From contig JBANSL010000005.1 in assembly GCA_037127255.1 (NCBI GenBank), forward strand, positions 81,721,160 through 81,785,159: 64,000 nt of DNA, in the 5' to 3' direction. The notes beneath the pieces were generated by a model. It made no database searches. It was not told the origin of the DNA and saw only the letters and a list, made by a program, of their open reading frames with translations. The position numbers and the translations under genes are program-made. The stretch comes from Persicaria tinctoria (Eukaryota > Streptophyta > Magnoliopsida > Caryophyllales > Polygonaceae). Positions 4,389 through 53,618 of the stretch are shown here, piece after piece. Positions within the stretch are counted from its first letter, which is position 1. Each line of letters starts with the position of its first letter.

Positions 4389-5800
4389 TGACGGAGGGAA
4401 AACCTGTCGTTGATCCGTCAAAGAAAACTCAAACCTATAACTAGTATAGCAATAAGTAAGAGGTCGATCCCACAGGGAAATTCGTTATTCAAGTGTGATT
4501 TAGATGCCAATCAAGTAACCAAAAGGGGTTTTTATGCGTGAAAGTTCCGCCTTTTATCAAAGCGGATTGAAGCAAACAAAAGTAAATGGTTTTAATTCAG
4601 ACAATTAGGAGAAGCAATTCTACCTACAATTTTCCACTTTATTGGATTGAAGCGATCCTTGTAACTTCTTCTCGTCCTATTAAGTTTCTTATGAATGCCC
4701 TTGTCCCGACCTAATATGGTTACTAGTCCAACCAGTCCTAGCAACCCTTATCAATCGAACGGTCCCTAAAGAAGGATTTAACCCAATTGATAGCTTTAAG
4801 TTCAGAGATTAGCCAAGGTATTTGCAGTCCCTAAAGAGGGATTTAACAACACATTCAACTTCCTACTCATTCAATTAGTTCAACCAGCCCTAAAGGAACA
4901 AGTTTGCCATTTAGGTTAAGGTTCACAACCAGGAATTGATCTAACAAGTTGGTCAGACAAGATAGAACAAATCAATAAACAATCAAGCACAAAGAAGTTG
5001 AAGCATTCAAATATAGGAAACAAGGAACGAGAATTAGAAACTCACAATCAATCCAAATAAAACTTCAAATTGTAGGCAGAATAGATGATTTAGTTCCTCA
5101 TAGAAGACATCGCTCAAAATCTCTAAAGTGTCTGATGAAAGAATGAATAGAATAGAAGTGCTGGAAAATAACTAAATTTGGCCTTATATATGACTCAAAG
5201 TCGGCCAAGAAACAAAGTAATAGGCTCTAGGGTTTTTAATAATCAAAACGATGCGCACAGCGCTAACGACCATGCCGCGGCCGTGGCATCAACAACTCTC
5301 CCATATCCCGCTGCAGCGGCCCTGGCGGCGGCCGCGGCATGCATGCTGCGGCCGCGGCATATTGTCTTTCACGGAAAATCTGTTTCGAATTTGCTCTTCT
5401 TGTCCACAGGAAAGTTGTAGATCTTTGAAAGAGCTTTCCAACGCATGGTCATAGTAGTCAATCGGACAACCGAGACTTCCAGAAAGTGCAAAACAAGTTC
5501 AGCATGTCTGGCGGCAACTTCTGCAGACTTGTTCTTCGTTTAGGTCCGCTTCTTCTTCTCAGGACCTCTTGAGATCTTCATGTAAGCTTCTCCGATCAAC
5601 TAGACATTCTCATCTAATGCGTTAACAACTCCTGTCTCATCATCGGATCCACGATTACCTGAATTAATCAATAAAAGTGTGTAGATTCCGACTCCACTAA
5701 CATAGAGAGCAAATATGCAAATTGTACTTAATCCATTCATGAAATGCATCTTAACTAAGCTAAATGCAACCTATTATGCCTACCTAAATGCATGCTATCA
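4389..5800 (-). repeat. 5' LTR of the 744-5800 element
   Basis: TG...CA ends in plus orientation (TGACGG...GCTATCA), homologous to 744-2201. It carries a shorter GC patch at about 5270-5360 with two exact GCGGCCGC octamers. It differs from its partner by small deletions and many substitutions, so the insertion is not recent. Confidence 0.88.
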
Positions 5801-12492: not shown

Positions 12493-13228
12493 TCTATCTA
12501 TTATGTATTATCTATTATCTATTACTAACTATTAAAACAAAAACCTTAGCGATGACATGTCGCCCTCTCCTTAATTCTAGGCCTTTTAACCAATCACTTT
12601 AGCCTAAATTACAATTTTAATAGTTTAAAAAAAACATCTATTATCTATTACTAACTATTAAAACAAAAGTCTTAGCGATGACATGTCGCCCTCTCCTTAA
12701 TTCTAGGCCTTTTAACCAATCACTTTAGCCTAAATTACAATTTTAGTAGTTTAAAAAAAACAATGGGATTAATTCAAAACATAAAATTAATAATAAGGAA
12801 ATATAAAATTAATATTAGTAATTTGTATCTATATATATCTATATATACTACTTTAATTATTTTTTCAACCATCTATTACTAACTATTAAAAAAAAGCCTT
12901 AGCGATGACATTTCGCCCTCTCCTTAATTCTAGGCCTTTTAACCAATCACTTTAGCCTAAATTACAATTTTAGTAGTTTAAAAAAAACATCTATTACTAA
13001 CTATTAAAACAAAAGTCTTAGCGATGACATGTCGCCCTCTCCTTAATTTTAGGCCTTTTAACCAATCACTTTAGCCTAAATTACAATTTTAGTAGTTTAA
13101 AAAAACAATCTATCTATTACTAACTATTAAAACAAAAGCTTTAGCGATGACATGTCGCCCTCTCCTTAACTCTAGGCCTTTTAACCAATCACTTTAGCCT
13201 AAATTACAATTTTAGTAGTTTAAAAAAA
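12493..13228 (+). repeat. Tandem copies of the Helitron 5' terminal region (left block, about five)
   Basis: Units begin TCTATTACTAACTATTAAA and continue through CTTAGCGATGACATGTCGCC, CCTTTTAACCAATCAC and TTTTAGTAGTTTAAAAAAA. Units start near 12512, 12637, 12870, 12990 and 13109. Most are about 120 bp. One is extended by about 110 bp of AT-rich sequence ending ATATATACTACTTTAATT. Confidence 0.9.
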
Positions 13229-13230
13229 GA

Positions 13231-13259
13231 GAAAATTTGTGCCGAAGGCACAAATTTTC
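13231..13259. repeat. Perfect hairpin at the left terminus of the MULE
   Basis: GAAAATTTGTGCC, a 3-base loop GAA, then GGCACAAATTTTC: a perfect 13-bp stem starting two bases inside the element end. The right end lacks an equivalent stem. Confidence 0.9.
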
Positions 13260-13484
13260 GGCCAAATTAGGCAAGTATACACGTTTTTGAGAAAATTGCA
13301 AAAGTATACATGATTTTAAAACACACCCCCCCCCAACTGCTCACTCCCTCTCTCTCTCTCGTTTCTCACTCTCTCCATTGCGGTTTTCACTCTCTGCATC
13401 TGTTCTTTGACGATTTCCTTCGACAAGCGGCATTTTCCGGACGTTGTTGTGCTCGTTTTCGTGTGTTATTGAAGGTTATTGAGT

Positions 13485-16400
13485 ATGGCTAGCAGCGCAG
13501 GTAAGCATTTTGTTGATTTTTTATGGTTTCTGTGTGTTAGGGTTTTGTTTATGTCAGATTATGTGCTGGTGAGTATGTGCGATGGCACGATGTTTGTCGT
13601 TAGGGTTTTTTTGGATGAATATGTGTTGTTCGTTCTCAATCGCACTAGTATGTGTGCCTGATTTTGCAGTTACGACTTCTATTTGTAATGTTGACCTCGA
13701 TTTTGGCATCTTATTCTGTCCTTTTGGAATCCATCTCCATCCTTTTGCATGTCCACTCTTTGTCTTCTTTGATTTTTGGCGTGTTCTGTTTGTGGTGTAT
13801 GTATGTTTGTGTTTGATATCATATTTCTGTGGGGCTGGCATCTATTTATCTTTTGTTTATCTTGTTTTTGTTATGTTCACAGGGACCTCAACTGATCTTG
13901 ATATATACAAATGCAAGTTTGATGTGAGTCTATGAAATTTATATAGCAGTTTTTGTCATTGTGTTTGCTTCAAATGCTGACATGTGCTTTTGTATTCAAT
14001 CTGTATACTTTTTTTGCAGAAATTGAAGTTCTGTATTCTATATAAAGAACGTTTCCATGCCAGATCTAACCTATACTCTCGCCCTGAAGTCTGTGACATT
14101 ATTAAACAACATTTGTTGCCTGAGCACTATAAGATGTTGAAGGAGAGTTTTCTGGGATGGGTGCTCTCCCAGGGCAACAATATGACTGTTAACTTTCAGT
14201 TAATCCATCAAATGATGTTGCGACAGGTTAAGACTAAGAAGAAGAAGGAACTCTGGTTCAAAGTTGATGGACTTATAGCTCGTTTTTCGTTGGCTGAATT
14301 TCATGTAATGACTGGTCTTCCATGTGAAGACCGTGTCTACAATCCGTTGAATGCAATGACTTTTTCTGATTTTCTTGGGATGGATAGATGCTCCCATGAT
14401 GATTTGATCAGTTGTTTCAAAAAGATGAAGAAGACGTCGAAGAAGAAGCTAATTTTAGCGAGGTTGTTGCTCATTGAGATGGTTGTGTGTTATAGGCGGA
14501 TAGACTATATCACCGAGGCAAATCTATCACCTGCTTGTGATGACGAGAAGTTTGGACAATATCCATGGGGCAGACAGTCCTATGAATATCTATTGAAGGC
14601 CTTGAAGAAGTCATCTACGATGGATCGCAAGAAAGCTAGTCCTTCTTATGAGTTGTATGGATATTGAATTGCTTTCCAGGTATTCTGTTTACTTGTTTCA
14701 TATCTCTTTTTAATCATTCCTCACTATGTGTCAGCATTGTAGGTATTCCTTACTACGTGTCAGCATTGTATGTATTCCTTAATATGTTTCAGCATTCATC
14801 ACTTGTGTCATCATTCTTCACCATGTGTCAGCATCTTATGCATTGTTATTGTGTTTGCATGACCACTTGTTTTGTTTTTATAGGCCTGGATATTTGAAGC
14901 TTTTTCGGCGTTGTATGATAAGTTTGAATGTAATTTGAGGATGAATGATAAAGATCATCATTCTTTGCATTGGGTTTGTAAGGTTAGGCATACTTATGAT
15001 GAAGCTGACGAGCTATTTGATGGTGACTTGGTAAGAGAAATATATCAGTTGTGATTCCAACTCTGTGTTCTTATATACATGTGTTTTCTTATTTATATTT
15101 TTTTTTGATGTGCATCATAGACACCGATGTTCCCAAACTATGGAGAGTTTGCAAGAACCCTAGGTATGGGTTATATTGATGAAGAGGCTGATGATGTATG
15201 TGATGCCATTGGTGAGCCTATGTTTTCTCAACCACCTACTGATCTTCTGTATGATTGTCGGCATATGCGCAAGTATGCATATGAAAACAAGTTTTTACGT
15301 AATGATGGTTCAGAGATTGAATCGTTCCTGTCTCTCGAGTATGGATTTGTTGAAGGAGAGGAAGAGGAGATATCTGCTGACATAGAGAAGCGAACGAACA
15401 TGAAACTTGCGGTTGATGAAGGAAATGTTGAGGACAAATTTGTTGATGTAGAGAAGGGGAAAAAGAGGAAACATGCTGACATAGGAAAGCCTTCTAAGAA
15501 GAAGCAGAAAGGTCCATCCACTGAGATCCAGGTGAAGAGAGTCGTTGTGAGGAGAGGGCGTTCTATTGGACCTCCACGAACCAACCCTCAGGCTGACATA
15601 GAAGTTATTAAATCAATCAGGAGGAAGGCTGGGAGGATTAGAAAGAAGGTTGTTGACTTTAAGAGAGGTGAGGAATCTAAGAGAGATGTGATTCTTTATG
15701 ATGACACAGAGACAACCACAGTGGATGCAGACAAGGGGTCTAAGAAGCGTGGTGCTGACAGGGAGGAGGCTGTTGTCCAGGCAGAAAAATATGACCAAGT
15801 TGGATATGCTTGTGATACATCTGATGAGGATAAACCTATTCAGTATGTTTTGAAGAAGAGGAAGAAGGCTATGGGAAGTACAGGGAAACGTAGAATGTTA
15901 TATAAAAGTAGCAGTTCAAACAAGTCTTCCTCCATCCCCCAAGCCCCCTTGATGTGTTGTTATCTCCTGTTGAAGTTGTGAATGATGCATGTAAAGTGAT
16001 TGTACCGTTTGTTGAGGTGCAAGGTGAAGCTCAGGCTGACACAGAAAATGCTGACCACAATGATGATCAACTTGATGGCAGCCAAGGTGTTGGTGTTGAC
16101 ACAGAGAATGCTGACCCCCATCATGGAAGTCAAGGGTTTGATGATATCAAGGTTGATTCTGGAACTGTTTCTCCGTTGGCTGCTCTATTGCTTTTGAATA
16201 AAGGAATGGATGGTAGTTACGACATGAAGATAGTTGATGAAGATGTTGTTGTTGATGGCCAAAATGCTGACACTAGTGGTGATGACAAGCTGGAGATAGG
16301 TGGCAACAGAGACAAGGGTGATTGTGGTGACAACCAGAAGGGAGTGTCTGATGAGCATCCAAAAGATGCAGAGATGGATGGTGGTGATAAAGATGAAACT

Positions 16401-18467
16401 GCAAAGGACGATGGTGTTGCTGGTGAGGCTGACGCTAAATCCAACCCAGTTTGGGTACGTGATTTAATTAAAAGGATTCAAAAGCTTGAAGAGCTGCCTG
16501 CACGTGTAGATGATTTAGTAAGAAGGATTGAAAAGCTTGAAGAGCTACCTGCACGTCTAAATGAGTTGGGTTCTCGTGTTGATAGGGCGGTTGAACTTGT
16601 TGCAATGGTTACAGACCTGATGGAAAAGTATAACTCACTTGAGAATAGGTTCACACTGCATGAATCTATTGTTGCAAGGTCACAGTCATCTGTCAACATT
16701 GATCAACCAAGTACCAAGATTGTGAATGATGTTATTGCTGACATCAAGATGGGTGTTATCCCTGAGGATGTTATGGCTGAGGAGGAAGCTGAGTTGGATT
16801 CACCCGAAGATTGTAAACAACTGAAGACACCTATTTGTGGTGATGAGGGAGATGAACCCCAACAACTGACAGTTGATGTTGTAATTCCGGAGTCTATCAT
16901 TCCTGTCACATTGGTTGAAGGACAGAGGACATTAGAGTCAGATTCAGTTCACTTTGCTGTTGTTCTAGGTCGTGATTCTGATTTGATGTCCATGGAGCCA
17001 AGAGATGAAGAGTTTAAGGACAGCAACGATGGACTTCATGAAGATGCTGACAGGGGATTGCAGAGTACTGGTGAGGATGTAGAAGCTGATCTGCTGGTGA
17101 AGTCGAGCAATGAAGAGTGTAAGGAGGTCATTGCATGTGGTGATGCCAAGGGTGTTGTTACCCCATCAGGTGGCAAGGGTGATGGGGATGAGAAGGCTGA
17201 TGTTGCAGTAACTCCACCTCCTACCATTGCACCACTAGGGACTATCAACTTGGATTCTGCTGAAGGTGATGAAAATGCTGACACGGTTGAATTGCCTGTA
17301 ATCAGTGACTGGGTTGCCTACAGCAAGCATCCTAAAGTAGTTGAAGAGATTGAATTACTAAGGCGATCCAAGCGTATTCCAAAAGCTAGTACCTTCCTGA
17401 CGAGTCCATATGAGCAGCAAGAAAAGAAAGGGAGGTGGCCAAAGCACAATCCGAAGAAGTCACTTTTAAGTGAAGATGATCATGAGTTTATGTACAAAAC
17501 TATGAGTAGTAATCGGTATTTTTTTTTATCTTTTTACTCGATATATATTCATGAACTGTCTTGTGCTGACACTTCTACCTCTTATGATCTTGTGTTTAAT
17601 TCACAATTTTTGCTTGTTTCCAGGGATTTTTCTGTCATTGTTGCTTCTGGACGGGTTGATAAATCGTTTTTTAAACCAATTCTAAACAAGGACATGTGGT
17701 TGGACTGTTCGGTAAATGTTCTGACAGTAGCTTGTTACTGTGTGTTGTAGCATATTGAAGCAGGTTTGTATTATTTGAGGAAGAGGATTCATGAGGAAGC
17801 TGACAAGTATGCAGATTTCGTTGTCTTGGATTGGGTGTTCTATCAGAACTACCTGCCATCTAATGCTAGAGCGTACGAAGTAGATTTGCCTGTGTCAGAC
17901 ATGACTGCGAGTTATTTCTTGGGTCTTTACCCTGACCAATATGGTAAGCCATGGGCATCTGCAAATAAGATTTACACACCCTTCAACGTTGTCAACAAGC
18001 ATTGGGTTGCTTTAGAGATCATAATTGATCAGAAGGTGATTAATGTCTATGACTGCAATGTCTATGACGTTGGCAAGGGTATACTAGATGCAGAACTCCA
18101 ACCTATTGCTCACTGGCTTCCTATACACTTGGTGAAGTGTAGAATATATGAAAACTTTAGCTCTACACCATTTGAGATAAGGAAGGTTCCTGACATGGTC
18201 CATGATAAATCTGGGTTTGTACTCTTACCCAACTTATATATTAATTGCTGACATACATTTATTTTCTATTTATCTTTTGTTGACACACCCCTATTTGTCT
18301 GTTTTGTGAGTGTGTGCAGAAGTGCTTGTGGGGTGTTCACAGTGAAAGCAATCGAGGTTGTTGTATTTGGCGGAGATCTCACAACAATCACAAATGAGAA
18401 GCTATTCCGCTACAGAGAGCTTATTTGCTCAGACTTGATTAAGGAGTCTTGGAGCTTCATAATTTGA
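13485..18467 (+). CDS. DUF1985 / Ulp1-like cysteine protease gene of the MULE, 8 exons, with two lesions
   Basis: Exons fitted to GT-AG sites and phase are 13485-13500, 13883-13923, 14020-14679, 14884-15030, 15121-17515, 17624-17711, 17751-18214 and 18320-18467, about 1,320 codons. Exons 3-4 hold a DUF1985-like domain (ELWFKVDGLIARFSLAEF, VMTGLPC, then AWIFEAFSALYDKFE). Exon 5 encodes a long charged, Lys-rich then acidic region with heptad-like coiled-coil repeats (IQKLEELPARVDDLVRR twice). Exons 6-8 form a C48 protease: HWVALEI (His), VYDCN (Asp), and GSACGVFTVK (Cys), the last created by splicing. Lesions are an in-frame TGA at 14665-14667 and a one-base loss near the C-run at about 15936-15950. 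Apart from these the phases all close. Ulp1 proteases act on SUMO; the role inside MULEs is unknown. Confidence 0.82.
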
Positions 18468-18959
18468 GCAATGCTGACACCATCATTTTGAGTACTTAGT
18501 TTAAGTGACATTGTAGGTTATGATCTTAGTCACATACTATGGATATGTAGTTGGATATGTCAGTATTTAGTTGGATATTAACTGTTTCCATTGAACATCG
18601 TTCGCGTATATTGAATGTATGTATTTTGTTGTGTTAAAGTTCTTATTCGGAATTAAGCATCTGGCTTTTTACATTAGATCGAGTTTGATATAGTCTCCAA
18701 TCACATACAATGTATAAAATCCAATATGACAGAAGTAATGCTGAAACAAAGTGCATTCAATTTATTTGAAAACATATGGGAATGTATCTGTGTCAGCATT
18801 GCCCATAATGCTGACATGGTTTTATGTATACTATGAAAAAGTAATTTCTAAACAGAACAGGTTTATTGTATGCAATACATATCACTGGGTGGTTCTAAGT
18901 GATTGTATCTTAGAAGTATATGATATAAAGCGAGCCGGTCTTGAGCAATGCTGACACCA

Positions 18960-21370
18960 TCATTTTCTTGAGTACTTAAGTCTCCTCTTTAGCTCACACG
19001 CAGACACCAGTCTCTTAGATGGAGGTCTTCCTGGTCCCCTCTTAACAACAGGAGGGTAAGACTTTATAGATCTTATTGCTTTAGGGACGTCTGATTCATC
19101 GCCTGTCAGCACTGGGTATATTGTTTCGTCATAAGCTAATTTCCAAGCTTCAGTTGTGTAAAATCTGGCAACAAAGTCTGATACATTTGCCTTAATTTTT
19201 ATGATGGCTGAAAGAGCATGAACACACGGGATCTTCTCTAGATCGAAAAACTTGCAAGTGCATGTTTTTGCAGACAGGTCCACCATTGCATGAGACCCTT
19301 GCCCTTTTACTTCAAATTTATATTCATCCAGCCTCTGAACCTTGTATGATCCAGCTTCATCTTGTAGGTTCCTAATCAGATCAAGTATTTCTGGCATCAA
19401 CTTGTCCTCATGTTTGGATGCCTTTTCTCTACGCTCTTGGAACCATGTTCCGAGTTTCTCTCTAGCAAAATTCAACAGTGCAACAATAGGATAATTCTTC
19501 TTCCCCTTGAAAATGGCATTTATGCTTTCTGCATTATTAGATGTCATCATGTTGTATCTGGTGATTGGTGAATGTGCTCTAGCCCACCTATCCACTCCTG
19601 CTGACAGTAAATATTTCGACATCTTCGGGCAGCTTTCCTTTATGCGGTCAAAATATTTGTCGAACTCCCCAGTAGTATAACTATCTGCTGCTTTCTTGAA
19701 CCAATTTCCCAAGTATCTTTTCTTGAAGGTGCTTCTAATGTTTTGTTCCATGTGCCATCTACAAATGCAGTGATGTGCACTAGGGTAAACCAAGCCAATT
19801 GCTCTTGAAATGCTGACATGTCTATCAGACACAAACACTAAATCATTTGATGGAGGAACAACCTTCAGCAGCTGTCGAAGAAACCACTCCCAAGAGCTGT
19901 TGTTTTCTGTGTCAGCAATGCCAAATCCAAGCGGGAAAATATTTCTGTTTGCATCTTGCGCTACTGCTCCAAGCAAAGTCCCTTTGTATTTCCCAGTTAA
20001 AAATGTTCCATCAATAACAACCTGTAAAATAATGATTATAAGTTGTGTGATGACAATGAAACATTCAAAAGTGATTACATAGTCGCTGTGCTGACACTGA
20101 TAATTTCATACCTTTTTCAACATAGGGAAGGCCCGAATACACTGTCCAAATGATAAAAACAAGTATTTAAACCTGTCATCATTATCTGTTGACATCAATG
20201 CCACAGTTCCATCATTTTTCTCCATAATCATGTGACAGAATAATGGCAAGTCAGCAAAGTTTGATTCCAGTGTCCCTTTGTCCCTTTCTTGTGCAATTCT
20301 TCCTGACCGCCACGATGTCCAATAACTAATGGGCATTTTCTTTTCGGTCCTCATTTTATCCACTATCTGCTTTGGATTGTAACCGCTGTTGACACTGTAA
20401 TATTGTATACATTAGAATGAATAATGTGATACTTGAATTGAGAGTTATTTTGATGACATATAGACACTTACATTGGCTGGATTATGCTTGCTATCACTGA
20501 GGAAGGTGCTTTCCTGCAATTGCTTGTTCTCACATCCCACGTGCATGTGTGCACATCATTGTACGCTAACACCTCGTAGCAAGTATGAGAAATAGTATTT
20601 ACGTGTAACTTCCATCTGCAGCTATTATCCACACAATGCGCCCTAAAATACTTGGGTTCTGATCTTTTTACTCGGTACCCAAATGTTTCTGTCACTGATA
20701 ATATACGTAAAGCATCGTTTATTTCCTGCTTTGATTCAAAGATTCTCCCAATGTACATTGTGTTGGATAAGGTATTGTTGAAAGTACTCATGCTAGAGTT
20801 GTCATCCCTGTAATCTTCTAGTGTTTTATCTCTACTGCGCATTGAAGAATGTAGTCTCCTCCAGGTGTCAGCATCATAATCAATGTCATTATCATCATCC
20901 ATATCATCATCCATATCATCATACATATCATCTGACGCCAATGTCTGCATTTGAGTGTCAACAATCATATGATTTTGCTCCATGTCATACTCAATCAATC
21001 CAACTGATTTCCTACTCTCCCTGTCATCTGTGTCAACAATTGCAAGTGTTTGTGCCTGTATGCTGACACACAACTCAACAGCATAGTTTACACCATCTAG
21101 TGCTGATATATTAAGGAATTCTTTCAAATCAGAGTCACAATCAACTGTAAGTGGGGCTTTCAGCTTTTTGCATAGGTGCAAATGACTAAATTGCAATTCA
21201 AGCACATTGTCTACATTGAATCTAGTGCACACCTTTCTCTTCAAGTCATGTAGTGTGGTTGAATCATACAGCAAAAACACTTTTGATGTTGTATTTCCAA
21301 CGAATTCCAGGCCTGTGTCAGCAAATACCCATGATCCACCAAATGCTATTGTAATCACATGAGGTTCCAT
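18960..21370 (-). CDS. mudrA: MuDR-type MULE transposase, 3 exons, apparently intact
   Basis: Exons are 21370-20472, 20394-20112 and 20021-18960, totalling 2,244 bases (748 codons with stop), with consistent phases and GT-AG borders. Domains: an N-terminal PB1-like segment (about 1-105); an acidic Asp-rich linker; a MuDR N-terminal zinc-binding domain (about 210-300; CVDNSCRWKLHV, then HTC); the MULE DDE core with D398 (VIDGTFLTG), D460 (VFVSDRH) and E559 (NNAESINA); a SWIM zinc finger C648-x-C650...C660-x-H662; and an AT-hook-like KRGPGRPPSK near the C-terminus. It would cut and reinsert the element in the nucleus. The start is the first ATG (MEPHV), with no competing upstream ATG in frame. 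No lesion was seen, unlike its partner gene. Confidence 0.92.
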
Positions 21371-21394
21371 TTATGTTTGACCTATCAATTAATT

Positions 21395-21607
21395 ACAGAC
21401 AATATGCAAACAACTACAACGAGTTACTTCTGATTCCGTGTCAGCATGATAGAAATAAGTTAGATACAGACAATATGCAAACAAGTACAATGAGTTACTT
21501 CTGATTCCATGTCAGCATGATAGATATAAGTTAGATACAGACAATATGCAAACAAGTGCAATGAGTTACTTCTGATTCCGTGTCAGCATGATAGATATAA
21601 GTTAGAT
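21395..21607. repeat. Three 71-bp tandem repeats upstream of the transposase gene, one motif each
   Basis: Units start at 21395, 21466 and 21537 with ACAGACAATATGCAAACAA. Each contains TTACTTCTGATTCC followed by GTGTCAGCATGAT or a one-base variant. They lie 25-240 bases upstream of the transposase ATG (minus strand), the promoter/5' UTR position. Confidence 0.92.
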
Positions 21608-22257
21608 ACATGTTATTTATTTACGAAATCTCAGACAGTGTCAGCATTACACAACGAATCCAGAATTTAAAACAGATCTATGTAGAACAATTTATACAAT
21701 TATTTCCTTTCAATTCATTCAAGCACAACATTTTGAATTCATTGAACAGACAGATTTAAGTTTCGTGATGTTGACAGATCGAGTATATATTAACGAAGCA
21801 GATCAACGAAGAACTTGAAATTCTATATATTGTCGACGACCTACTCTGATTTATATTGAAACAGCAACAAACGAAGTGGAAATTACACGATCTACACTAT
21901 ACGAGTTCAGCAATTGGATATAAAACGATATTTACACACGAATTGAAGTTTTTTTCACAGATCTATGAACGACAGATCTATCCACTATACGAATGCTGAC
22001 ATTAAAACCACAATCCAGTAATGCTTGGATGTTAGAAGGATGTAGTGCCGAGATTCAGGAGGAGATCGGAGTCGATCAATACCTACAACGATCAAAATCA
22101 GATCCTCTACTGTCGTGTCAGCGCTGGCGAAGAAGGAGAGATCGGGGAGGCAAGAGCGCGTGTGGGGAGAGTGTTGTGTATAATTTGCTAATATTCCCAC
22201 AACTTTGTATAGTTCCCTAATTTAGCCTTATTATTTGTATACTTTGCAAACCCACCC

Positions 22258-23100
22258 TTAAAAAAACATCTATCTATTACTAACTATTAAAACAAAATCC
22301 TTAGCGATAACATGTCGCCCTCTTCTTAATTCTATGCCTTTTAACCAATCACTTTAGCCTAAATTACAATTTTAGTAGTTTAAAAAAAAACAACTATCAC
22401 TAACTATTAAAACAAAAGCCTTAGCGATAACATGTCGCCCTCTTCTTAATTCTAGGCCTTTTAACCAATCACTTTAGCCTAAATTACAATTTTAGTAGTT
22501 AAAAAAAAACAATCTATTACTAACTATTAAAACAAAAGCCTTAGCGAGGACATGTCGCCCTCTCCTTAATTCTAGGCCTTTTAACCAATCACTTTAGCCT
22601 AAATTACAATTTTAGTAGTTTAAAAAAAACAATGAGATTAATTCAAAACATAAAATTAATAATAAGGAAATATAAAATTAATATTAGCAATTTGTATCTA
22701 TATATATCTATATATACTACTTTAATTGTTTTTTCAACCAATCTATTACTAACTATTAAAACAAAAGCCTTAGCGATGACATGTGGCCCTCTCCTTAATT
22801 CTAGGTGTTTTAACCAATCACATACTTTAGCCTAAATTACAATTTTAGTAGTTTAAAAAAACAATCTATTACTAACTATTAAAACAAAAGCCTTAGCGAT
22901 GACATGTCGCCCTCTCCTTAATTCTAGGCCTTTTAACCAAACACTTTAGCCTAAATTACAATTTTAGTAGTTTAAAAAAAACAATGGGATTAATTCAAAA
23001 CATAAAATTAATAATAAGGAAATATAAAATTAATATTAGTAATCTGTATCTATATATATCTATATATACTACTTTAATTGTTTTTTCAACCAATGGGTTT
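22258..23100 (+). repeat. Tandem copies of the Helitron 5' terminal region (right block, about five)
   Basis: Same unit as 12493-13228, starting near 22270, 22391, 22511, 22741 and 22864; two copies carry the 110-bp AT-rich extension. The MULE interrupts the array at a TTAAAAAAA that every unit contains. Confidence 0.9.
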
Positions 23101-31735: not shown

Positions 31736-32005
31736 TTTCATACCAAAAACTTAAATCGAAAATCATCTATTACGATTATCAGTTTTGATTTCCGAAAATG
31801 GATACCAAACAAGCCTTAATATCGTTTGTTGTTTATACTAGCCAGCGTCTTTGACCCATTAAGGTTTTGACCTCGAATCTACTCCCCAACTGCATTCCAC
31901 CATATACTGGCCGATGCTGACAACTTGATGTAATTAATGGAATATATATATATATATATATATATAGGGACGGATTTAGGGGTGAGCCGATGTGTGCTGC
32001 AGCTA

Positions 32006-32902
32006 GGCCTGATACATGAGCCGAGTAGCTCGGGTTCGGCTCGGGCTCGACTCGGAAAAAGCTCGGCTCGAACTCGTTCGAATTAGAAAACGAGCCGAGT
32101 TCGAGCTCCCAGTCGAGCTCGAGCCGAGCTCGAGTAGGCTCGGTTAGCTAAATTTCAATTTTTACCCCTAGGTTAAAACTACCCTAATCTTGTGTGGATA
32201 TGTCTGCCCCATTGAGCGCAGCCTCCATTTCAATATTTCTCAAGCTGATGTCTCTCCCTCTCCCTCATCATCATCACTGGTTCTCACTTCTCAAGCCGCT
32301 CCGGTGCTCCCTCCTCTGTCAATCTCAGCCCGGTAGCCGGTGGCCGTCGTATTCTTCTCTGGCCGGCGTCGCGAAATCTCTCATCCGTCAGGTATACGCC
32401 GTCGTCCTCTCCCTCCTCTGTCAATCTCAGTCCGGTAGGCGGCGGCTGTCGTATTCTTCTCTGGCCGGCATCGCGAAATCTCCCATCCGTCAGGCATGCG
32501 CCGTCGTCCTCTTGCTGTTTGTAGATCTCGAATCGAACGATTGTCCGTCTCCTACCTCCTCTTGTCTCGGCTGGTCGAGCTCTAATCTCGTCGAGTAGAC
32601 CAACAAACCACTGCTCTAATTAATCTCTCTCATCCCCCTCGCAGGTACTGGTGGTGGAGCCCTAACGAGCTCATCGAGCTCGAGTTCGAGCTCGTAACGA
32701 GCCCAACCGAGCTTATCGCTCGACTCGAGGACAAACGAGCTCATCGAGCCGAGCTCGACTTCTAAACCTTGTTCGCGAGCCGAGCTTGAGCACATGTATA
32801 TACTCGAATAGGAATTGAGCTCGAGCTCGAGCTCGGCTCGTTTATAAACGAGCCGAGCTTGAACAACAAGTACTCGAGCTCGTAGGCTCGTATATCAGGC
32901 CT
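32006..32902. mobile_element. Inverted-repeat element packed with GAGCTCG palindromes (897 bp)
   Basis: Ends GGCCTGATACATGAGCC and, inverted, AGGCCTGATATACGAGCC, flanked by AGCTA at 32001-32005 and 32903-32907. The outer 150-250 bases on each side are runs of GAGCTCG, GCTCGGCTCG and close variants, which are self-complementary. The middle holds a CT-rich stretch with a 100-bp tandem duplication (copies starting near 32312 and 32417). An ORF across it (32194-32598) reflects the duplication and resembles no known protein. The superfamily is unclear; a 5-bp TSD fits none of the commonest TIR groups. Confidence 0.65.
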
Positions 32903-34728: not shown

Positions 34729-36999
34729 TGTTGTGAGTCTAATTTGCCATGTCTTACACTTACATTTATATCGATTTTTGCATGCATTTCATACACTTGG
34801 GTTAGAATAGTACAGAATCTATGTAGTTCACACTTATTTTCCAAATTATGGAGTCTACACTAGTTTCTGTTTAATTTCGCAGAAATCGGACGCACTTTGG
34901 AGCTTAAAGGAAAGTCATGAAGAAGCTAAGGATGGTGCATCCGGAGAAAACTTCATTTTTCACCATTCATCGTTCTGAATCAAGCTTTGATGTCTTCATG
35001 AAAGTTGTAGCCTTCGAAAAGAGCTTTCCAACGCATGCTCATATGCGTTAATCGAACGAACGAGGACTCGGGAAAGTGCGTTTCAAGAACTGAGCAGAAT
35101 GTTGAAAGCGCACAGAACTAGGGATGGGCATCCGGTCTGGACCGGACCGGACATTCCGGTCCCGACCCGATCCGGTGGACCGGAATTTTTGAAAACATGG
35201 ACCGCGGATCGGACCGGGACCGAGAAATATGGTCCCGGGTTTTTCGGTCCGCGGACCGGAATTGTCCAAGTAGCCACTGTTTTTTTTCTTTTTAAACCAC
35301 AGCAGGCCCTATTTGCATTTAGTGTTGGCCAAATTGGACGGGGTTTAACACATACAGTACATAGCTTTGATATACAAACAATTCCTCAGCTAATTCAAAA
35401 CTCTATACAAAGTACTGTTGAAGACTTAATACAAGTTTTCAGGTTATTACAAGCATTTTCTAATGGTAACATGATGATGGATGATGAATGAGGATTTTTT
35501 TTATTTAAAGGTTAAAATTTATTAATATAGACAAGGGGTACAACAAGTTCCTGCTACAAAAACATCCACATGGAGAAGACATGAAGACCAACTTCTCTTT
35601 ATCTTCCAAGGACCACCAGTCATACCAAGGGAGGATCAAAGCAGCTAGATGAGTAGAGAATCTAGTCCAAATCAATGCTCCGAAGGCAGCCCGCAAGAGC
35701 AGACAACATGCGATAGACCAGTGAGGAACCTACAAAGCAGCCCCCAAGTTTGATCGAAATGAAGCATCCCAATGAGATTCTTTAACATTGACATTTCTTA
35801 AACCCTTAAATTTAAAACCGAACCTAGATCTAAAAGTATTACAAATTGAAATTTCTTAACCCTAGATTTAAAATCGGGATGAGATTCTTCAACATTAGAC
35901 TAGAATACTTATGATTTCTCTAAATCTATACTAAAATCAATATTAATTTGTAAAAATATACCTAAAAACCTAGATCTAAGAGTGAAATTGAGAGAAAGAA
36001 AGACTTACCGGGAGAGCCGAGAGTGATGGTGCCGATAGCCGAGGGCCGACGGGCGTGTGGCTTCTCGCGAGGGAGCGTTGAGCGAGGGCCTACGGGCGAG
36101 TAGGACAAGTAGGTGGTGTTGTGGTGGTGAACAGAGAGAGACTGAGGTTGGCAGTGGCGGTTATCGAGCGCAGGGAAAGAAAGAAAGGGTTGAAGAAATG
36201 AAACTATGAAAGTGGAACGCGTTTCTTCTTTACTCTTCTTCTTTTGTTTCATTCTTTTTTCTTTTAATAATGTGGATTCCGGTCCAATTCCGGTCCGGGC
36301 CGGAAATTCCGGTCTGGTTCCGGGTTTAGACCGGAACCCGGAAATCCAAAAATCTTGGACCGTGGACTAGACCATAATATCCCGGTTCGATCCAAAGACC
36401 GTAAATTCCGGTCTGATCCCGGTCCGATTACAGTCCGATCCAAAATTTGCCCAGCCCTACACAGAACTAGTCGACGTCAACCAAACTGGTCAGCGTCCAG
36501 TAACTTTTTGGTCGACTTGTCTCCCAGAAGTCGAGAATGAGCACCAGACCACTCGAGAGCACAATTCTTGTCGATGTCGAGTACACCCGACGAGTCCAGA
36601 ACCTGCTCGAGCTCGAGTGCAACCCCGGAGGAAAAATCCTACTCGACGTCGAGGAGTTTGGTCGACATCGAGGACAATCCATAAGCATATTGAGTCCGAG
36701 ATCGAGTTGTGTCCAAGAAGATAGAGTTACTTGCAAGCCAAGAGATGTGGAATTTTATCCAACCACATCAAGATCTATCAAGTCAAGAAGGATTTATCCA
36801 CAAATAGCTTTATTTCCTTAGGGATTTATTTGTTTTATTTTCAAATTTAATCATTAAGCTTTAGATAGATAAATTTAGATATAGATAGATAGTTCCTTCC
36901 TAGAATAGCTTAGATTGGAGCCTATAAATAAAGCCCTAGGGGGTTGATTTTCAAACATTCAAGCCAAGTCGACTTCGGGCGCAAGGAGAGAGGAGAGAG

Positions 37000-37057
<58 letters not shown>

Positions 37058-37739
37058 ACGCAAGGAGGAGGAGAGAGAGAGGAGGAGGAACTTTTGGAAG
37101 GTTTTGTAAGTTTTAGATTTACTTTAATGTTACAGTTATTTTCTTTCATCATGTTTGCTTTCTAATTTCCTTCTTCGAGGGTCGGGGTGAGCCCGACGAT
37201 AGTCATGCACACTTGAGGTAAAGTTTTGATATTTATTATGTCTTGATCATCCACTGCCTTTTATATATTTATTGTCTACTCAAAAGAATAGAGATTCATG
37301 TTAACAACTTGAATTATAAACATAAAATTGGTAGATACAATTAGGGTTACTTGAAAGGGTTATCTAATTGTTGGAAAAGGTGAAAGCTTGCTCCTTTGAT
37401 GTGATTACATAACTATTCTATCTTATCTTTTGTGTGTTTGATTATCGTTGCGGTGATCCCTTACCTTGGAAGTTTGCACCTTTATTACTTTATTTCATTA
37501 TTTACATTCTGCACAAATTTTACCCGACACCAACCACCATTCCCTGTCCATCCCTCGACATCGACCCATCCTTAGTCGACATCGACAACAACCCTCATCA
37601 CCTTTTCCCGCTATTCCCTGAACCCCAAACACACTAAAACCTAAAACCGCCGACTTCTCTCATGAGGACGAACCTGACTCCACTATCTTATAGCGTGGTC
37701 TTGACTACAAATTTATTTGGTCGAGAAACCCTCTCGTCA
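34729..37739 (+). repeat. 5' LTR of the TR-GAG element (with hAT insertion)
   Basis: 1.66 kb without the hAT at 35119-36459 and its duplicated target. It contains CCTATAAATAAAGCCC as a TATA region and a (GA)n tract at about 37003-37056. The GTCGACGTCGA motifs intact in the 3' LTR are partly mutated here (for example GTCAGCGTCCA). Confidence 0.88.
35119..36459 (+). mobile_element. hAT-type element inside the 5' LTR (1,341 bp)
   Basis: Ends TAGGGATGGGCA and, inverted, TAGGGCTGGGCA, with an exact 8-bp TSD CACAGAAC at 35111-35118 and 36460-36467. Both subterminal regions are full of CCGGTCC/GGACCGG motifs (35130-35270, 36280-36440). A reading at about 35285-35490 (ALFAFSVG then STVEDLIQVFRLLQAF) vaguely resembles the C-terminal dimerisation region of hAT transposases. 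The middle is AT-rich with no gene. The target duplication is visible because the 3' LTR has the uninterrupted sequence. Confidence 0.88.
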
Positions 37740-40314: not shown

Positions 40315-41222
40315 TGTTGTGAGCCTAATTTGCCATGTTTTCCACTTCCTTTTATATCGATTTTTGCATGCATTTCATATCTTTGGGTTAGAATAGTACA
40401 GAATCTATGTATTTCACACTTATTTTCCAAATTATGGAGTCTACACTAGTTTCTTTTTAATTTCGCAGAAATCGGACGCACTTTGGAGCTTAAAGGAAAG
40501 TCATGAAGAAGCTAAGGATGGTGCATCCGGAGAAAAAGCCATTTTTCACCATTCATCGTTCTGAATCAAGCTTTGATGTCTTCATGAAAGTTGTAGCCCT
40601 CGAAAAGAGATTTTCAACGCATGCTCATATGCGTCAATCGGACGAATGAGGACTCGGGAAAGTGCGTTTCAAGAACTGTGCAGAATGCTGAAAGCGCACA
40701 GAACTAGTCGACGTCGACCAAACTGGTCGACGTCGAGTAACTTTTTGGTCGACTTGTCTCCCAGAAGTCGAGAACGAGCACCAGACCACTCAAGAGCACA
40801 ATTCTAGTCGACGTCAAGGAGTTTTGGTCGACGTCGAGTACATCCGACGAGTCCAGAACCTGCTCGAGCTCGAGTGCAACCCCGGAGAAAAAATCCAACT
40901 CGACGTCGAGGAGTTTGGTCGACGTCGAGGACAATCCAGAAGCATGTCGAGTCCGAGATCGAGTTATGTCCAAGAAGATAGAGTTACTTGCAAGGCAAGA
41001 GATGTGGAATTCTATCCAACCACATCAAGATCTATCAAGTCAGGAAGGATTTATGCACAAATAGCTTTATTTCCTTAGGGATTTATTTGTTTTATTTCCA
41101 AATTTAATCATTAAGCTTTAGATAAATATTTTTAGATATAGATAGATAGTTCCTATAAATAAAGCCCTAGGAGCTGATTTTCAAACATTCAAGCCAAGTC
41201 ATCTTCGGGCGCAAGGAGAGAG

Positions 41223-41272
<50 letters not shown>

Positions 41273-41951
41273 GCAAGGAGGAGGAGAGAGAGGAGGAGGA
41301 ACGTTTGGAAGGTTTTGTAAGTTTTAGATTTACTTTAATGTTAAAGTTATTTTCTTTCATCATGTTTTCTTTCTAATTTCCTTCTTCTATGGTCGGGGTG
41401 AGCCCGACGATAGTCATGCACACTTGAGGTAAAGTTTTGATATTTATTATGTTTTGATCATCCACTGTCTTTTATATGTTTATTGCCTACTCAAAAGAAT
41501 AGAGATTCATGTTAACAACTTGAATTATAAACATAAAATTGGTAGATACAATTAGGGTTACTTGAACGGGTTATCTAATTGTTGGAAAAGGCGAAAGCTG
41601 GCTCCTTTGATGTGATTACATAACTATTATATCTTACCTTTTGTGTGTTTGATTATCGTTGTGGTGATCTCTTACCTTGGAAGTTTGCACCTTTATTACT
41701 TTATTTCATTATTTACATTCTGCACAAATTTTACCCGACACCAACCACCATTCCCTATCCATCCCTCAACATCGACCCATCCTTAGCCGACGTCGACAAC
41801 AACCCTCATCACCTTTTCTCGATATTCCCTGAACCCCAAAACACACTAAAACCTAAAACCGTTGACTTCTCTCCTGAGGACGAACCTGACTCCACTATAC
41901 TATAGCAGGGTCTTGATTACAAATTTATTTGGTCGAAAAACCCTCTCGTCA
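40315..41951 (+). repeat. 3' LTR of the TR-GAG element
   Basis: Uninterrupted partner of 34729-37739. Contains repeated GTCGACGTCGA-type motifs at about 40705-40935 and a (GA)n tract at about 41229-41269. The stretch 38660-40310 before it has AT-rich non-coding sequence only, with short GTCGAC motifs near 38840-38980. Confidence 0.88.
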
Positions 41952-47825: not shown

Positions 47826-50373
47826 TGGTGTTGCTCGAGCCCTTTTTTCTTTTTAGTGATATTTTTATTTTGGTGGTAAAGTAGGGGATGGGGGTTGAAG
47901 GATATGTGATGCAAGATCCCGAGGGTATCGCGCCCTTAGAATCTCCAACACTCGACCAAAGACACCCTCCGAATCGCACTTCGGGTGTTGTTGATCCTTG
48001 TTGTCGTCGGTGTCGCGCCTAGGACAACTTTCTCGTAGGTATCGCGCCTAAGAGAGATCGATTTAGAATCGCACTAAATCTGATTTTGTGGAAACACAAA
48101 GAGAGTTTTGTTCATTCAAATTCAACTTCTCGAATCTAGCCATGTTCTTACAATATATATAGGAAAAACACAAGGAAAATGCAAAGAGGGAAGGGCAAAG
48201 GGTGGCCGGCTCCTAGGGAAGGGGAAAGGAATGGTCTTGAGTTGATTATGGCCATCAAAGAGATGGAAGGTCGGAAATCCCTAAAGCCCCGTCATTTAAT
48301 CCGACTTTATTGATCGCATTCCGTCTTCCTTTATTGCATTTCCGACAAGTTGCCTGATTTTTCGGACCGATCCAAAGATCCCAGATTTCGGCCTTGTTCC
48401 AATCTGAATGGACGATTGCATCCTTCAACAAAGTTGTAGCCGCTTAAAATATCTTTCCAACAAGTGTTCATTAGCTTCAATCGGAATTTTATACAATCCG
48501 TTGGATCCAAAATACCGATGTATCACCGATCTATTTTCTCAATTGAGATTTCGTGTGACTCATGCTCATATGGTAATATGATCACATCATCCTCCTCCCC
48601 TTGAAAAGGATTCGTCCTTGAATCCGTGATAGAAATGAATGACTTCTTCGAACATGCTTCTTCTTCTTCTTGAATCGTGAAAGGCAAGCAAGACGGAATG
48701 AAAGAAGTCGAATCTAACCACTTACTTGACATGGAATTCAGAAAGTTAGGCATGTCGGTTGGCATTCGTTTCCTTCATGAAAAGCGCAACCTTGGGAACT
48801 TGAATGATTTCTCCATCTTTCTTAAGCTCAGGGTTGACCTTCGCAATCTCAATATAAACTTCCTTGGACTTGCCTTCTTCAATCTCAAGTGTCTCACCCA
48901 CGGCCGTAGAGGATTTTGTCTTTGAAGAAGGAGGTGGGGTTGTTGTGGGCTTCGATAGCGTCGCCCCCAATGAGTTGACGATTTTTCGAAGTTCCTTTAC
49001 TTTTTGCAATGAATCTTCCGCGAGCTTGCGGATCTCTTGCCGAGGTAGTGTAGCCTTCTTCTTACGCCGAGCCTCATCCTCTCGAGCCCTTTTCTTTCGG
49101 TATCTTCTCTGGAGCTCTTGATCAACTACATCATATGTAGCGCCATCCATGTCAATCCAACGAAGATACCCATCATCATATGCTCGAATAGCCCATCAGA
49201 TGTACTCTTCGGACAAAGGCTTGAAACTCGTTTTCTCGAACATTTTGACCCCAAAGCTTGAGGAACCCTTGTCGTTGCTCTGATACCACTTGGTGTGCTT
49301 GGGCCCGGGCTCGAGCAAGAGGATCGGCGACGAGAGTTGCGAGAGGTCGGGAGGTCTTGGTCAGTTTCTGGAGCAGCAGATCAGTCAACAAAGAATATCA
49401 ATTTCCCGTTGATTCGCTTGGCCTCTGGGGACGTGCGAGTACTAGATTTGTAGCTCTTGAAGTCGCGGTCGTGGATTGGGGCGGATCTTGGCAATCGGAG
49501 GTGAGACAAAGCGGGAAATCGCGTTTTACCGAGACGTTTCCTGTGCAGAGACGATTCCGAAACTGGGTTCGTTTGAGGGGTATTGAGGGCTGCTTTGGAG
49601 TGACGTTTTGGGGGTGGTTTGAGGGTGATGGTGGGGCTGTGGAAGGCCTTATAATGGTGGTAAAGTAGGGGATGGGGGTTGAAGGATATGTGATGCAAGA
49701 TCCCGAGGGTATCGCGCCCTTAGAATCGCCAACACTCGACCAAAGACACCCTCTGAATCGCACTTCGGGTGTTGTTGATCCTTGTTGTCGTCGGTATCGC
49801 GCCTAGGACAACTTTCTAGTAGGTATCGCGCCTAAGAGAGATCGACTTAGAATCGCACTAAATCTGATTTTGTGGAAACACAAAGAGAGTTTTGTTCATT
49901 CAAATTCAACTTCTCGAATCTAGCCTTGTTATTACAATATATATAGGAAAAACACAAGGAAAATTCAAAGAGGGAAGGGCAAAAGGTGGCCGGCTCCTAG
50001 GGAAGGGGAAAGGAATGGTCTTGAGTTGATTGTGGCCATCAAAGAGATGGAAGGTCGGAAATCCCTAAAGCCCCGTCATTTAATCCGACTTTATTGATCG
50101 CATTTCGTCTTCCTTTATTGCATTTCCGACAAGCTGCCTGATTTTTCGGACGGATCCAAAGATCCCAGATTTCAGCCTTGTTCCAATCTGAATGGACGAT
50201 TGCATCCTTCAATAAAGTTGTAGCCGCTTAAAATATCTTTCCAACAAGTGTTCATCAGCTTCAATCGGAATTTTATACAGTCCGGTGGATCCAAAATACC
50301 GATGTATCGCAAATCTGTTTTCTCAATTGAGACTTCGTGTGACTCATGCTCATATGGTAATATGATCACATCA
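47826..50373 (-). mobile_element. Small non-autonomous LTR element inside copia C's integrase
   Basis: LTRs 49291-50373 (5') and 47826-48589 (3'), TG...CA ends (plus TGGTGTGCTTGGGCCC...GATCACATCA). The 3' LTR lacks about 320 bp near its outer end. Flanks CTTTG and CTTTT are a near-TSD, and removal restores KKVA-CGEKYFLT of the host integrase. On the minus strand the exact tRNA-Met primer site lies at 49277-49288 and the purine tract AAGGGGAGGAGGA at about 48590-48602. The interior is only about 690 bp. Confidence 0.85.
48746..49150 (-). CDS. Charged ORF in the small LTR element (134 aa)
   Basis: MDGATYDVVDQELQRRYRKK and a strongly basic Arg/Lys-Glu helical stretch, then a Ser/Pro/Thr linker and an acidic tail. 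It is probably a coiled-coil-forming remnant upstream of a lost polyprotein. No family recognised. It lies between the primer site and the purine tract, so it is the element's only coding candidate. Confidence 0.4.
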   Translation of the reverse strand: MDGATYDVVDQELQRRYRKKRAREDEARRKKKATLPRQEIRKLAEDSLQKVKELRKIVNSLGATLSKPTTTPPPSSKTKSSTAVGETLEIEEGKSKEVYIEIAKVNPELKKDGEIIQVPKVALFMKETNANRHA

Positions 50374-50380: not shown

Positions 50381-53011
50381 TGGGGAAAAATACTTTCTGA
50401 CTATTTTGGATGATCACACTAGAGCCACTTGGGTGTATTTGATTCAAGATAAAACTCAGGTGTACAGAATGATTGTTGCTTTCTTGAATATGGTTCATAA
50501 TCAGTTCAATGCTTCAATTAAGGTGATTAGGACTGATAATGGTACAGAATTTACTCAGAGATCTTGTGTTGAATTGCTTGAGAAATTTGGGATTGTTCAC
50601 CAGAAATCTGCCCCAGGGGTGCCTGAGCAAAATGGAAGAGTTGAAAGAAAACATAGGCATTTGATAGAAACTGCTCGTGCTATCAGACATTTTGCTAAAT
50701 TACCCATAAAATTCTGGGGTGATTGTGTTTTGAGTGCCACTTATTTGATAAATAAGATGCCCTCGGCTGTGTTGAATTGGAAGTCACCCTTTGAAGTGTA
50801 GTATGGGAGACCTCCGGGTCAAAAGGCTTTCAAAGTGTTTGACTTAGATAGAAAACCTTAGAACTATTGGCTGTTTATGCTATGCTTACCAACCCAATGA
50901 TCCAAAGGATAAATTTGGGGTCAAGTCTAGAAGATGCATCTTTCTAGGCTATCCTTCGGGTCAAAAGGCTTTCAAAGTGTTTGACTTAGATAGAAAATCT
51001 ATGCTAATTAGCAGACATGTCAAGTTTCAGGAACACGTGTTCCCCTACAAAGATTCTCATTTTCATATTGGGTTGCCTGATCAGTGTAAAGGTCTTCCCC
51101 TTGTTAATCCTGCTTCTACTGAGTTTACATTGCCAGTATACAGCTCCCCTCACAGTTCTACAACTAGTCCTTCTTCTATGAATGATTTGAATCAAGACAC
51201 TGCTGTCAGTGATACTTCTCCCACAGCTGCTTCACATGAAAATGCACACTCTACTTCTCTTATGCCAGACATTGTGCCTCAATCTCCTAGTCCATTGGCT
51301 CATGATTTGCCTCCAAAGAGAATTATTCATAGACCTCAGAGATTCAATGACTACATCTGTTCAGATATGCCAAGCAGAAGTGAATCTCAGTCACAGTCTT
51401 TCTTAGTGTTTTCCACTCAGCACTTGGCTCATTTGACACCTTATTATGTACAGTCCCTTGTGAATGTTTGCACTGTGTTTGAACCTAGAACCTACAATCA
51501 AGCAAAGGATGATGTGAGATGGCAAGCTGCTATGGATGCTGAAATCACTGCTCTAGAATCCAATCACACTTGGTCTATCACAGACTTGCCTCCTGGCAAA
51601 AAGGCCATTGGTTCTAAATGGATTTTTAAAATTAAATATAAGCCTGATGGTGAGGTAGACAGGTTCAAAGCCAGACTTGTAGCTAAGGGTTATAATCAAG
51701 TCAAGGCAAAGATTATAAGCAAACTTTCTCTCCAGTGGCAAAACTCTCAACTGTCAGAATTGTGTTGGCTCTAGCAGCAGCTAAGGGTTGGAAATTGCAT
51801 CAACTAGATGTTAATAATGCTTTTTTGCATGGTTTTTTTGGAAGAAGAAGTGTACATGACTCCTCCACTGGGATATACAAAGACAGCTCCTGGTCAAGTT
51901 TATAGACTTCTCCGATCTTTATATGGATTGAAACAGGCAAGCAGCCAGTGGAACCTAGAACGTACTCACAAAGTTCCTAGGAAAGCTGGGCTTTGTTCAA
52001 TCTTTGCATGATTAATCTTTGTTCACCAAGTCAGAAAATGGTTCCTTCACAGTGGCTTTGGTTTATGTGGATGATATGTTGATAATGGGGAATGATGGAA
52101 ATGAAATTGTATCCACTAAGCTTGCATTGGATAGAGCTTTTACCATTGAGGATTTAGGGACTGCTAGATATTTTCTGGGGATGGAAATCTCTAGATCATC
52201 CAAAGGCATCCTTTTGAATCAAAGAAAATACATTTTGGATATTCTTAAGGATGTTAACATGATAGAATGTAAGACAACCTCATTTCCTATGCAAAGGGGT
52301 TCCAAGTTATCTGCTAATGAGGGAGATATACTACCTGAGCCAGAACTGTATAGAAGGTTGATTGGTCGATTGTTTTACCTCACCTTCACCAGACCTGACA
52401 TCTCTTTCACAGTTCAACAACTGAGCCAGTACATTAAGTGTCCAAGGCAACCTCATTGGAAAGCTGCTTTGTATCTCCTAAGGTACTTAAAGGGAAGTTT
52501 CAATGCTGCCTTTGCCTATCCTGCTATATCAGATCTCAAGCTCTCTGCCTTCAGTGATGCTGATTGGGGCAACTGTCCAGACTCAGGCAGATCTCTATCT
52601 GGCTATTGTGTTTTTCTTGGAGGTGCTCTGGTTTCATGGAAATCTAAGAAGCAAAAAGTGGTGTCCAAATCGTCTGTAGAAAGTGAGTACAGGGCAATGT
52701 CTTACACAACAAGTGAGTAAATATGGATACAAGGCTTATTGTCTGATCTTCACATAACTATATCATTGCCTGTCACCTTGTTTTGTGATAACAAGGCTGC
52801 ACAGAGCCTTGCTTCAAATCCAGTTTACCATGAAAGGACTAAGCATGTGCGCATAGATTGCCATTTCATCCGAGAACTCATCCAACAAGGATTCATGACC
52901 ACATCCCATGTCTCAACTCAACTCCAAACTGCTGACATCATGACTAAGCCTCGTGGAGCTCATCAACACCATGTGCTCTGTGTCAAGCTTGGGCTTGTGA
53001 CAAGCAAGTGA
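50381..53011 (+). pseudogene. Copia element C: integrase core, reverse transcriptase, RNase H (broken)
   Basis: Integrase (50406-50801): DDHTRATWVYL, IRTDNGTEF, VPEQNGRVERKHRH. After a local 45-bp duplication and stops, the linker and RT start are in 50977-51774 ([47 protein letters not shown]). Frameshifts follow in motif A (NNAFLHG then EEEVYM). The ORF 52019-52720 has the catalytic LVYVDDMLIMG and the RNase H start SKSSVESEYRAMS. A stop at about 52718 is followed by 52739-53011 (LFCDNKAAQSLASNPVYHER, ADIMTKP). Order and motifs are complete, but the reading is broken several times. Confidence 0.92.
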
Positions 53012-53013
53012 AG

Positions 53014-53557: not shown

Positions 53558-53618
53558 GTTCGACTAATTTCTGGTGACTTTCCCCAATTTGGGGAAAGTC
53601 ACCAGAAATTAGTCGAAC
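53558..53618. repeat. Perfect 61-base palindrome at the inverted-duplication breakpoint
   Basis: Arms of 30 bases, GTTCGACTAATTTCTGGTGA...CCCCAA and its exact complement, around a single T at 53588. It begins at the base where the 544-bp arm stops matching. Confidence 0.95.

Follow-up and report, generated by a model that had tools for sequence, protein, structure and literature searches.

A dispersed octamer in exons and non-coding DNA of a VANDAL/Kaonashi-like element from Persicaria tinctoria

The element and its two genes

We analysed a 64-kb stretch of Persicaria tinctoria DNA (contig JBANSL010000005.1; hereafter the window), in which a single Mutator-like element (MULE) contains 30 exact copies of one octamer, TGCTGACA/TGTCAGCA, distributed over exons, introns and intergenic DNA. 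The element carries two genes on opposite strands, with their 3' ends facing each other: one encodes a MULE transposase, and the other combines a DUF1985 domain, an acidic linker rich in Ala-Asp and an Ulp1/C48 protease region (Table 1). The exon limits of both genes were read from splice signals and open frames rather than taken from program output, and it is this reading by eye that places DUF1985 and Ulp1 in one gene.

Table 1. Features of the element, in window coordinates
Feature	Coordinates	Strand	Details
Whole MULE	13229..22257	.	9,029 bp; flanked by 9-bp target-site duplication TTAAAAAAA at 13220-13228 and 22258-22266
Left end	13229..13410	+	about 20 bp unaligned, then degenerate inverted similarity to right end; free of TGCTGACA
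Right end	22092..22257	-	no exact TGCTGACA; one TGTCAGCG at 22116
DUF1985 - acidic AD-rich linker - Ulp1/C48 gene	13485..18467	+	exons read by eye: 13485-13500, 13883-13923, 14020-14679, 14884-15030, 15121-17515, 17624-17711, 17751-18214, 18317-18467
DUF1985 domain (PF09331)	14215..14598	+	E = 9.6e-24, 84.4 bits, cut-off 35.1
Ulp1 protease region	17751..18467	+	piece 17751-18251 against PF02902: E = 1.1e-8, 35.6 bits, cut-off 20.7
MULE transposase gene	18960..21370	-	747 amino acids; exons read by eye: 21370-20472, 20394-20112, 20021-18960
Field of 30 exact TGCTGACA	13975..22001	18 on +, 12 on -	last copy starts at 21994
Intron cluster	14713..14844	-	three related motif-bearing units; motifs at 14729, 14758, 14826
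Motif in MULE domain of transposase	19910..19917	-	peptide GIADTEN; Ala430
Three 71-bp tandem units upstream of transposase	21394..21610	-	one motif each, at 21439, 21510, 21581

The MULE was inserted into an array of ~120-bp repeats (12508-13228 and 22260-23094; 10 copies that are at least 60% identical). Because the insertion site is A-rich, the exact limits of the target-site duplication (TSD) are less sure; the span used for the simulations described below was 13230-22255. The inverted similarity between the ends is patchy and gapped and starts only after ~20 bp, as in degenerate terminal inverted repeats (TIRs). Both ends carry the hexamer TATACA, at 13276 and 13305 on the left (29 bp apart) and at 22236, 22206 and 22177 on the right, where it reads on the minus strand (spacing of 30 and 29 bp); by simple count, these are five of the 14 copies in the element, the other nine being internal.

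The transposase reading frame is free of internal stops, and its open reading frame pieces, scanned separately against Pfam, match MULE (E = 7.3e-23), SWIM (E = 9.1e-9) and DBD_Tnp_Mut (E = 3.4e-8). We found 31 homologs, the best of them 41% identical; among the 12 best-scoring, ten are from Brassicaceae and the remainder include one from Olea. The alignment used below was built from the best 16 of the 31, leaving out 15 (12 of them from Setaria). Neither the Pfam scan nor this alignment revealed a CCHC knuckle in the 747-residue protein; several aligned homologs have a CCHC-like CxxC...H...C arrangement after the SWIM region, which the transposase is without. In the available excerpts of PMC6446971, a CCHC knuckle beside SWIM is tabulated for the VANDAL group as a trait rather than a definition, and TIRs are expected to be absent or degenerate, yet some members of the clade have them. 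With its MULE transposase and SWIM finger, 9-bp TSD and short degenerate TIRs, the element resembles a VANDAL/Kaonashi-like MULE, as judged from these sequence traits.

For the DUF1985-Ulp1 gene, the Ulp1 triad of His, Asp and Cys was recognised by eye only, and the final Ulp1 exon, which presumably holds the catalytic Cys, matched no Pfam family when scanned alone. No DUF287 match was obtained in the scanned pieces, a set to which exon 14884-15030 does not belong. A sequence search returned no homologs of the protein; as the Pfam matches are good, we attribute this to the reach of the search and draw no conclusion of absence.

Distribution of the octamer

Exact counting gave 32 octamers in the window, 30 of them inside the element and two outside (31915 and 52930), as the initial annotation of this DNA had estimated by eye. 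Its count of 38 GCTGAC cores in the element rises to 39 on recounting (49 in the window), and the start it gave for the element, 13976, falls one base after the start of the first octamer. Markov models of order 1, 2 and 3 predict on average 0.67, 0.72 and 2.03 copies in the element (200 simulations each), and the highest simulated count across these orders was 6 for TGCTGACA and 10 for any octamer at all. Orders 4 and 5 predict 9.5 and 23 copies, presumably because the word itself is learned at these orders. We also scanned the entire window for recurrent words, excluding those of low complexity and requiring sites to be 150 bp or more apart; TGCTGACA ranks first, with 22 dispersed sites in 9 kb. 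Apart from its overlapping shifts no word exceeds eight dispersed sites, a number reached by the runner-up, the one-mismatch variant TGTTGACA/TGTCAACA. The octamer signal is real and very strong.

The bases around the octamer are also biased. It is preceded by A at 20 of the 30 sites and followed by C at 17, T at nine, G at four and A at none, giving ATGCTGACAY as the preferred extended form. The 24 possible one-mismatch words together occur 34 times against 11.7 expected; two of them stand out, TGTTGACA (nine copies, 1.4 expected) and TGATGACA (seven copies, 1.0 expected), and position 3 of the octamer therefore seems tolerant. In these two variants the flank preference is weak, with A after the word in 1/9 and 2/7 copies and A before it in 2/9 and 2/7, respectively.

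The site map agrees with the earlier description of copies in the exons and introns of both genes, between the genes and upstream of the transposase. Seven exonic and six intronic copies belong to the DUF1985-Ulp1 gene and seven exonic and one intronic copy to the transposase gene; five more lie upstream of the latter and four in the space between the two 3' ends. Density is 1.8 and 3.1 copies per kb in the two sets of exons, 5.9 and 6.0 in the two sets of introns, 8.1 between the genes and 5.7 upstream of the transposase. Exonic density is thus some two to five times lower than that of the non-coding parts (5.7-8.1 per kb), and the exonic share of 14/30 falls short of the 69% of the element that is coding (P = 0.016). 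The termini are free of the exact word: none occurs in the first 746 bp, and the last copy ends 256 bp from the right end.

We compared 20 + 20 flanking bases among sites and joined those with identity of at least 55%, a threshold of our own choosing. The 30 sites fall into 25 groups, so that tandem duplication, the alternative raised in the initial annotation, explains few copies and is ruled out as the sole cause. Short partial repeats (families D11, D12 and D19) were also observed around some exonic cores and copies.

When two copies are dropped from each of the tandem trios in Table 1, the 26 remaining sites are more evenly spaced than random (coefficient of variation 0.65, P = 0.019), and the largest gap is 777 bp (P = 0.013, or 0.040 without the ends). 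With all 30 sites the corresponding values are P = 0.10 for the coefficient of variation and P = 0.039 for the largest gap (0.10 without the ends). This is weak evidence of even spacing.

Exonic copies, and the rest of the window

The initial annotation had named shuffled controls as the test of its claim, and the excess over the Markov expectation extends to synonymous shuffles of both genes. In 5,000 shuffles that keep protein and codon usage, leaving out a few bases at a frame change in the DUF1985-Ulp1 gene, the transposase exons contained on average 0.62 copies (maximum 4) and the DUF1985-Ulp1 exons 0.77 (maximum 5), against seven observed in each. Together with the non-coding copies and the mixed orientation, this rules out codon usage or an Ala-Asp-rich protein as the cause.

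The dipeptide Ala-Asp occurs 19 times in the DUF1985-Ulp1 gene against 7.6 expected, and 14 of these 19 are spelled GCTGAC where codon usage predicts 18%; the transposase has five against 3.7 expected, four of them so spelled. Of the Ala-Asp peptides that had been attributed to the word, ADIEKR, ADIGKP, ADTSGD, ADIKMG and ADTVEL do come from exact copies, and ADTENADH comes from the near-misses GGCTGACA and TGCTGACC. All seven exact exonic copies of this gene are in the linker exon, and the DUF1985 and Ulp1 exons have none. Those of the transposase are scattered along the protein.

Aligned homologs indicate what some of these copies may have replaced. At the site within the MULE domain, the column of Ala430 holds Val in 14 of 15 homologs, Ile in one and Ala in none, and the Thr of the same peptide is Ser in 10/15 and Thr in 1/15. 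At site 19599, one of 14 homologs also has Ala535 but none of the 14 has Ser534, and at site 19811 Val463 is shared by one of 16. The remaining transposase sites fall in variable columns or specify common residues (e.g. Val102 in 7/10 and Ser464 in 7/16). On this alignment a conserved residue appears clearly displaced at one site and perhaps at a second or third, with the others permissive; we infer the order of change because the homologs are distant, and all our evolutionary statements rest on one copy of the element and on distant proteins. The suggestion that a DNA word has shaped protein sequence thus holds up in three ways: in the shuffles for both genes, in the Ala-Asp excess of one and in the displaced residue of the other.

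We found no other field of this kind in the window; GAGCTCGA, GACGTCGA and CCGACACG form local clusters only, most of the GAGCTCGA copies lying in a small element and most of the GACGTCGA copies in two long direct repeats. The small element (32000-32900, ~0.9 kb) has clusters of GAGCTCGA/CTCGGCTC near both ends and, by eye, inverted AGGCCTGATA-like ends, and it resembles a non-autonomous hAT-like element. The direct repeats (36460-37739 and 40697-41951; ~1.3 kb, 90% identical), with GACGTCGA/TCGACC clusters near each start, are perhaps the long terminal repeats of a small retroelement. Further long repeats, 94-98% identical, occur among copia- and LINE-like fragments (744-2200 with 4389-5799; 47865-48589 with 49649-50373; and, inverted, 53008-53558 with 55595-56145), and a piece of a cytochrome P450 gene (33739-34377; PF00067, E = 7.3e-12, profile positions 1-106 only) lies amid transposon remains.

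A candidate anti-silencing target field

Published systems offer a close comparison; our account of them follows excerpts of the papers cited. According to a figure legend in PMC5735166, VANC proteins carry DUF1985 and DUF287; the same paper gives YAGTATTAY as the word bound by VANC21, and AGTTGTCC or AGTTGTAC as words carried by the targets of VANC6. The word bound in VANDAL21 is located in non-coding DNA, where tandem repeats often contain it; binding was much weaker with two control probes from exons, which lack the word, and the authors found its accumulation difficult to square with base substitution (PMC5735166, PMC10398659). A 2026 review (PMC13317346) applies the name KIU to Ulp1-bearing VANC genes and states that they target motifs belonging to elements of the same kind as their own.

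Like VANDAL21 and VANDAL6 with their VANC21 and VANC6, the element described here combines a MULE, a DUF1985 protein and one short word accumulated in the element itself; tandem units, an intron and the region preceding the transposase gene likewise hold some of the copies, and the word differs from family to family. Unlike those systems, the word here is TGCTGACA(Y), 14 of its 30 copies fall within exons and the majority are scattered and have unrelated flanking sequence, whereas the VANC21 signal is stronger in non-coding DNA and tandem repeats are represented here by two small clusters; moreover, an Ulp1 domain is present and DUF287 is unmatched. A gene that joins DUF1985 to Ulp1/C48 and lies next to a MULE transposase is a feature shared with Kaonashi and its KIU genes, as are the degenerate ends (PMC13317346, PMC6117577). 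The excerpt of the review places the Kaonashi motifs in non-coding regions and makes no mention of exonic ones, unlike what we see here (PMC13317346).

The octamers most likely form a VANC/KIU-type anti-silencing target field with a word of its own, unusual in reaching exons. The parallel with VANC drawn in the initial annotation stands and is closer than had been claimed, since VANC proteins themselves carry the DUF1985 domain that scored 84.4 bits here; the system is probably of the same kind by descent rather than the independent case it allowed for. Among the matches listed in a literature search, as seen in titles and the beginnings of abstracts, there is no report of VANC motifs in exons; a survey of eudicots (Sasaki 2022, EMBO J) falls outside that coverage. 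That survey is reported to trace how DUF1985, DUF287 and Ulp1 domains, and motifs, have been gained and lost among eudicots.

We consider it probable (about 0.6) that this VANDAL/Kaonashi-like MULE has a VANC-type anti-silencing system in which its own DUF1985-Ulp1 protein reads TGCTGACA and counters silencing, and that selection for dense coverage has built the field. Both orientations, together with the copies between the 3' ends of the genes, point to DNA as the thing read and make an RNA or peptide signal unlikely. By family, the DUF1985 protein is the best candidate reader. It would be supplied by intact sister copies, which presumably exist, as the gene is broken in this copy, and would bind TGCTGACA, preferably as ATGCTGACAY, along the element. 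Binding would remove or block silencing marks, making the transposase and DUF1985 genes expressible. Selection for dense coverage, rather than mutational bias, would have fixed the word on average every 280 bp; in introns and intergenic DNA this would have come about by substitutions, with a contribution from tandem duplication, and in exons by synonymous and amino-acid changes. At somewhat less than even odds, we further suggest that transposon exons, even those encoding the catalytic domain of the transposase, have been rewritten by single substitutions into roughly even anti-silencing docking sites, such that gene bodies are protected directly and not by spread from non-coding arrays.

Several observations weigh against an anti-silencing system of this kind. 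The DUF1985-Ulp1 reading frame is interrupted by a TGA at 14665 and changes near 15,930-15,950, so that this copy probably yields no full protein; an assembly error is possible. No copy of the word stands in the 255 bp that precede the first ATG of this gene, although a system directed at promoters might need one there. The observed/expected ratio of CpG is 0.45 for the element as a whole and 0.35 for the transposase coding sequence; of the 13 4-kb bins that have no overlap with the element, 12 have ratios of 0.52-1.00 and one has 0.44. TpG/CpA is 1.39 in the element against 0.89-1.24 in those bins. The low CpG suggests that the element was methylated over a long time and was not steadily free of methylation, or that CpG was shed under selection. 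A single-sequence model of the DUF1985 fold was useless (mean predicted local distance difference test score 36.9) and so gives no structural hint of DNA binding, and one scan each of genome_contigs and viral_contigs, both non-plant collections, found no DNA relative of the element. Finally, 27 tests for helical phasing of the sites near 10.5 bp were negative (lowest P = 0.073, with low power for such sparse sites). Helical periodicity of Arabidopsis VANC target motifs has reportedly been described by Sasaki 2022.

Of the alternatives, two concern the identity of the reader. The transposase has a DBD_Tnp_Mut domain, a SWIM finger and, in this copy, an uninterrupted frame, and the octamers could be its internal binding sites. 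It is a poorer candidate because the termini lack the word and carry another, TATACA at 29-30 bp spacing, and sites spread over 8 kb of the interior would have no evident use in end cutting; we regard this as improbable. To a similar degree we doubt that the reader is a host DNA-binding protein, such as an exploited activator, with the DUF1985-Ulp1 protein doing something else. Host transcription factors typically read words of this length, but an activator would be expected at promoters and not in exons or between 3' ends, and the copy-free 255 bp before the DUF1985-Ulp1 gene fit it poorly.

Two further alternatives dispense with a reader. It is quite unlikely that the word spread without function, through short templated patches, conversion or duplication: the two tandem clusters and the partial repeats of families D11, D12 and D19 could be traces of such a process, but flanks are mostly unrelated (25 groups), orientation is mixed, exons have fewer copies than non-coding DNA and the 26 de-duplicated sites are somewhat evenly spaced (P = 0.019, against 0.10 for all 30). 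We reject the idea that the word is a decay product of methylation (TG/CA from CG, or changes at CTG sites): the element is CpG-poor and TpG/CpA-rich and the word begins with TG and ends with CA, but the presumed CG ancestors are nearly absent (CGCTGACA once, TGCTGACG never), the CHG decay forms are lopsided (TGTTGACA nine, TGCTAACA none) and an order-3 Markov model that keeps the TG/CA richness expects only 2.0 copies.

If the anti-silencing reading is right, the exonic copies bear on how such proteins act on genes. VANC lifts silencing over coding regions even though it binds mainly non-coding DNA, and its role there is called enigmatic in the excerpt of PMC10398659. An exonic word would be a natural test of this: local removal of marks from gene bodies would mean that coverage matters, and otherwise spreading would be indicated. 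The element would, moreover, illustrate clearly how a signal in DNA can constrain the amino-acid sequences of two proteins. Unpublished work on the structure and target of VANC is mentioned in the part of PMC12859917 available to us; the word and the DUF1985 protein described here would add a new pair from which to learn how proteins of this family choose their words.

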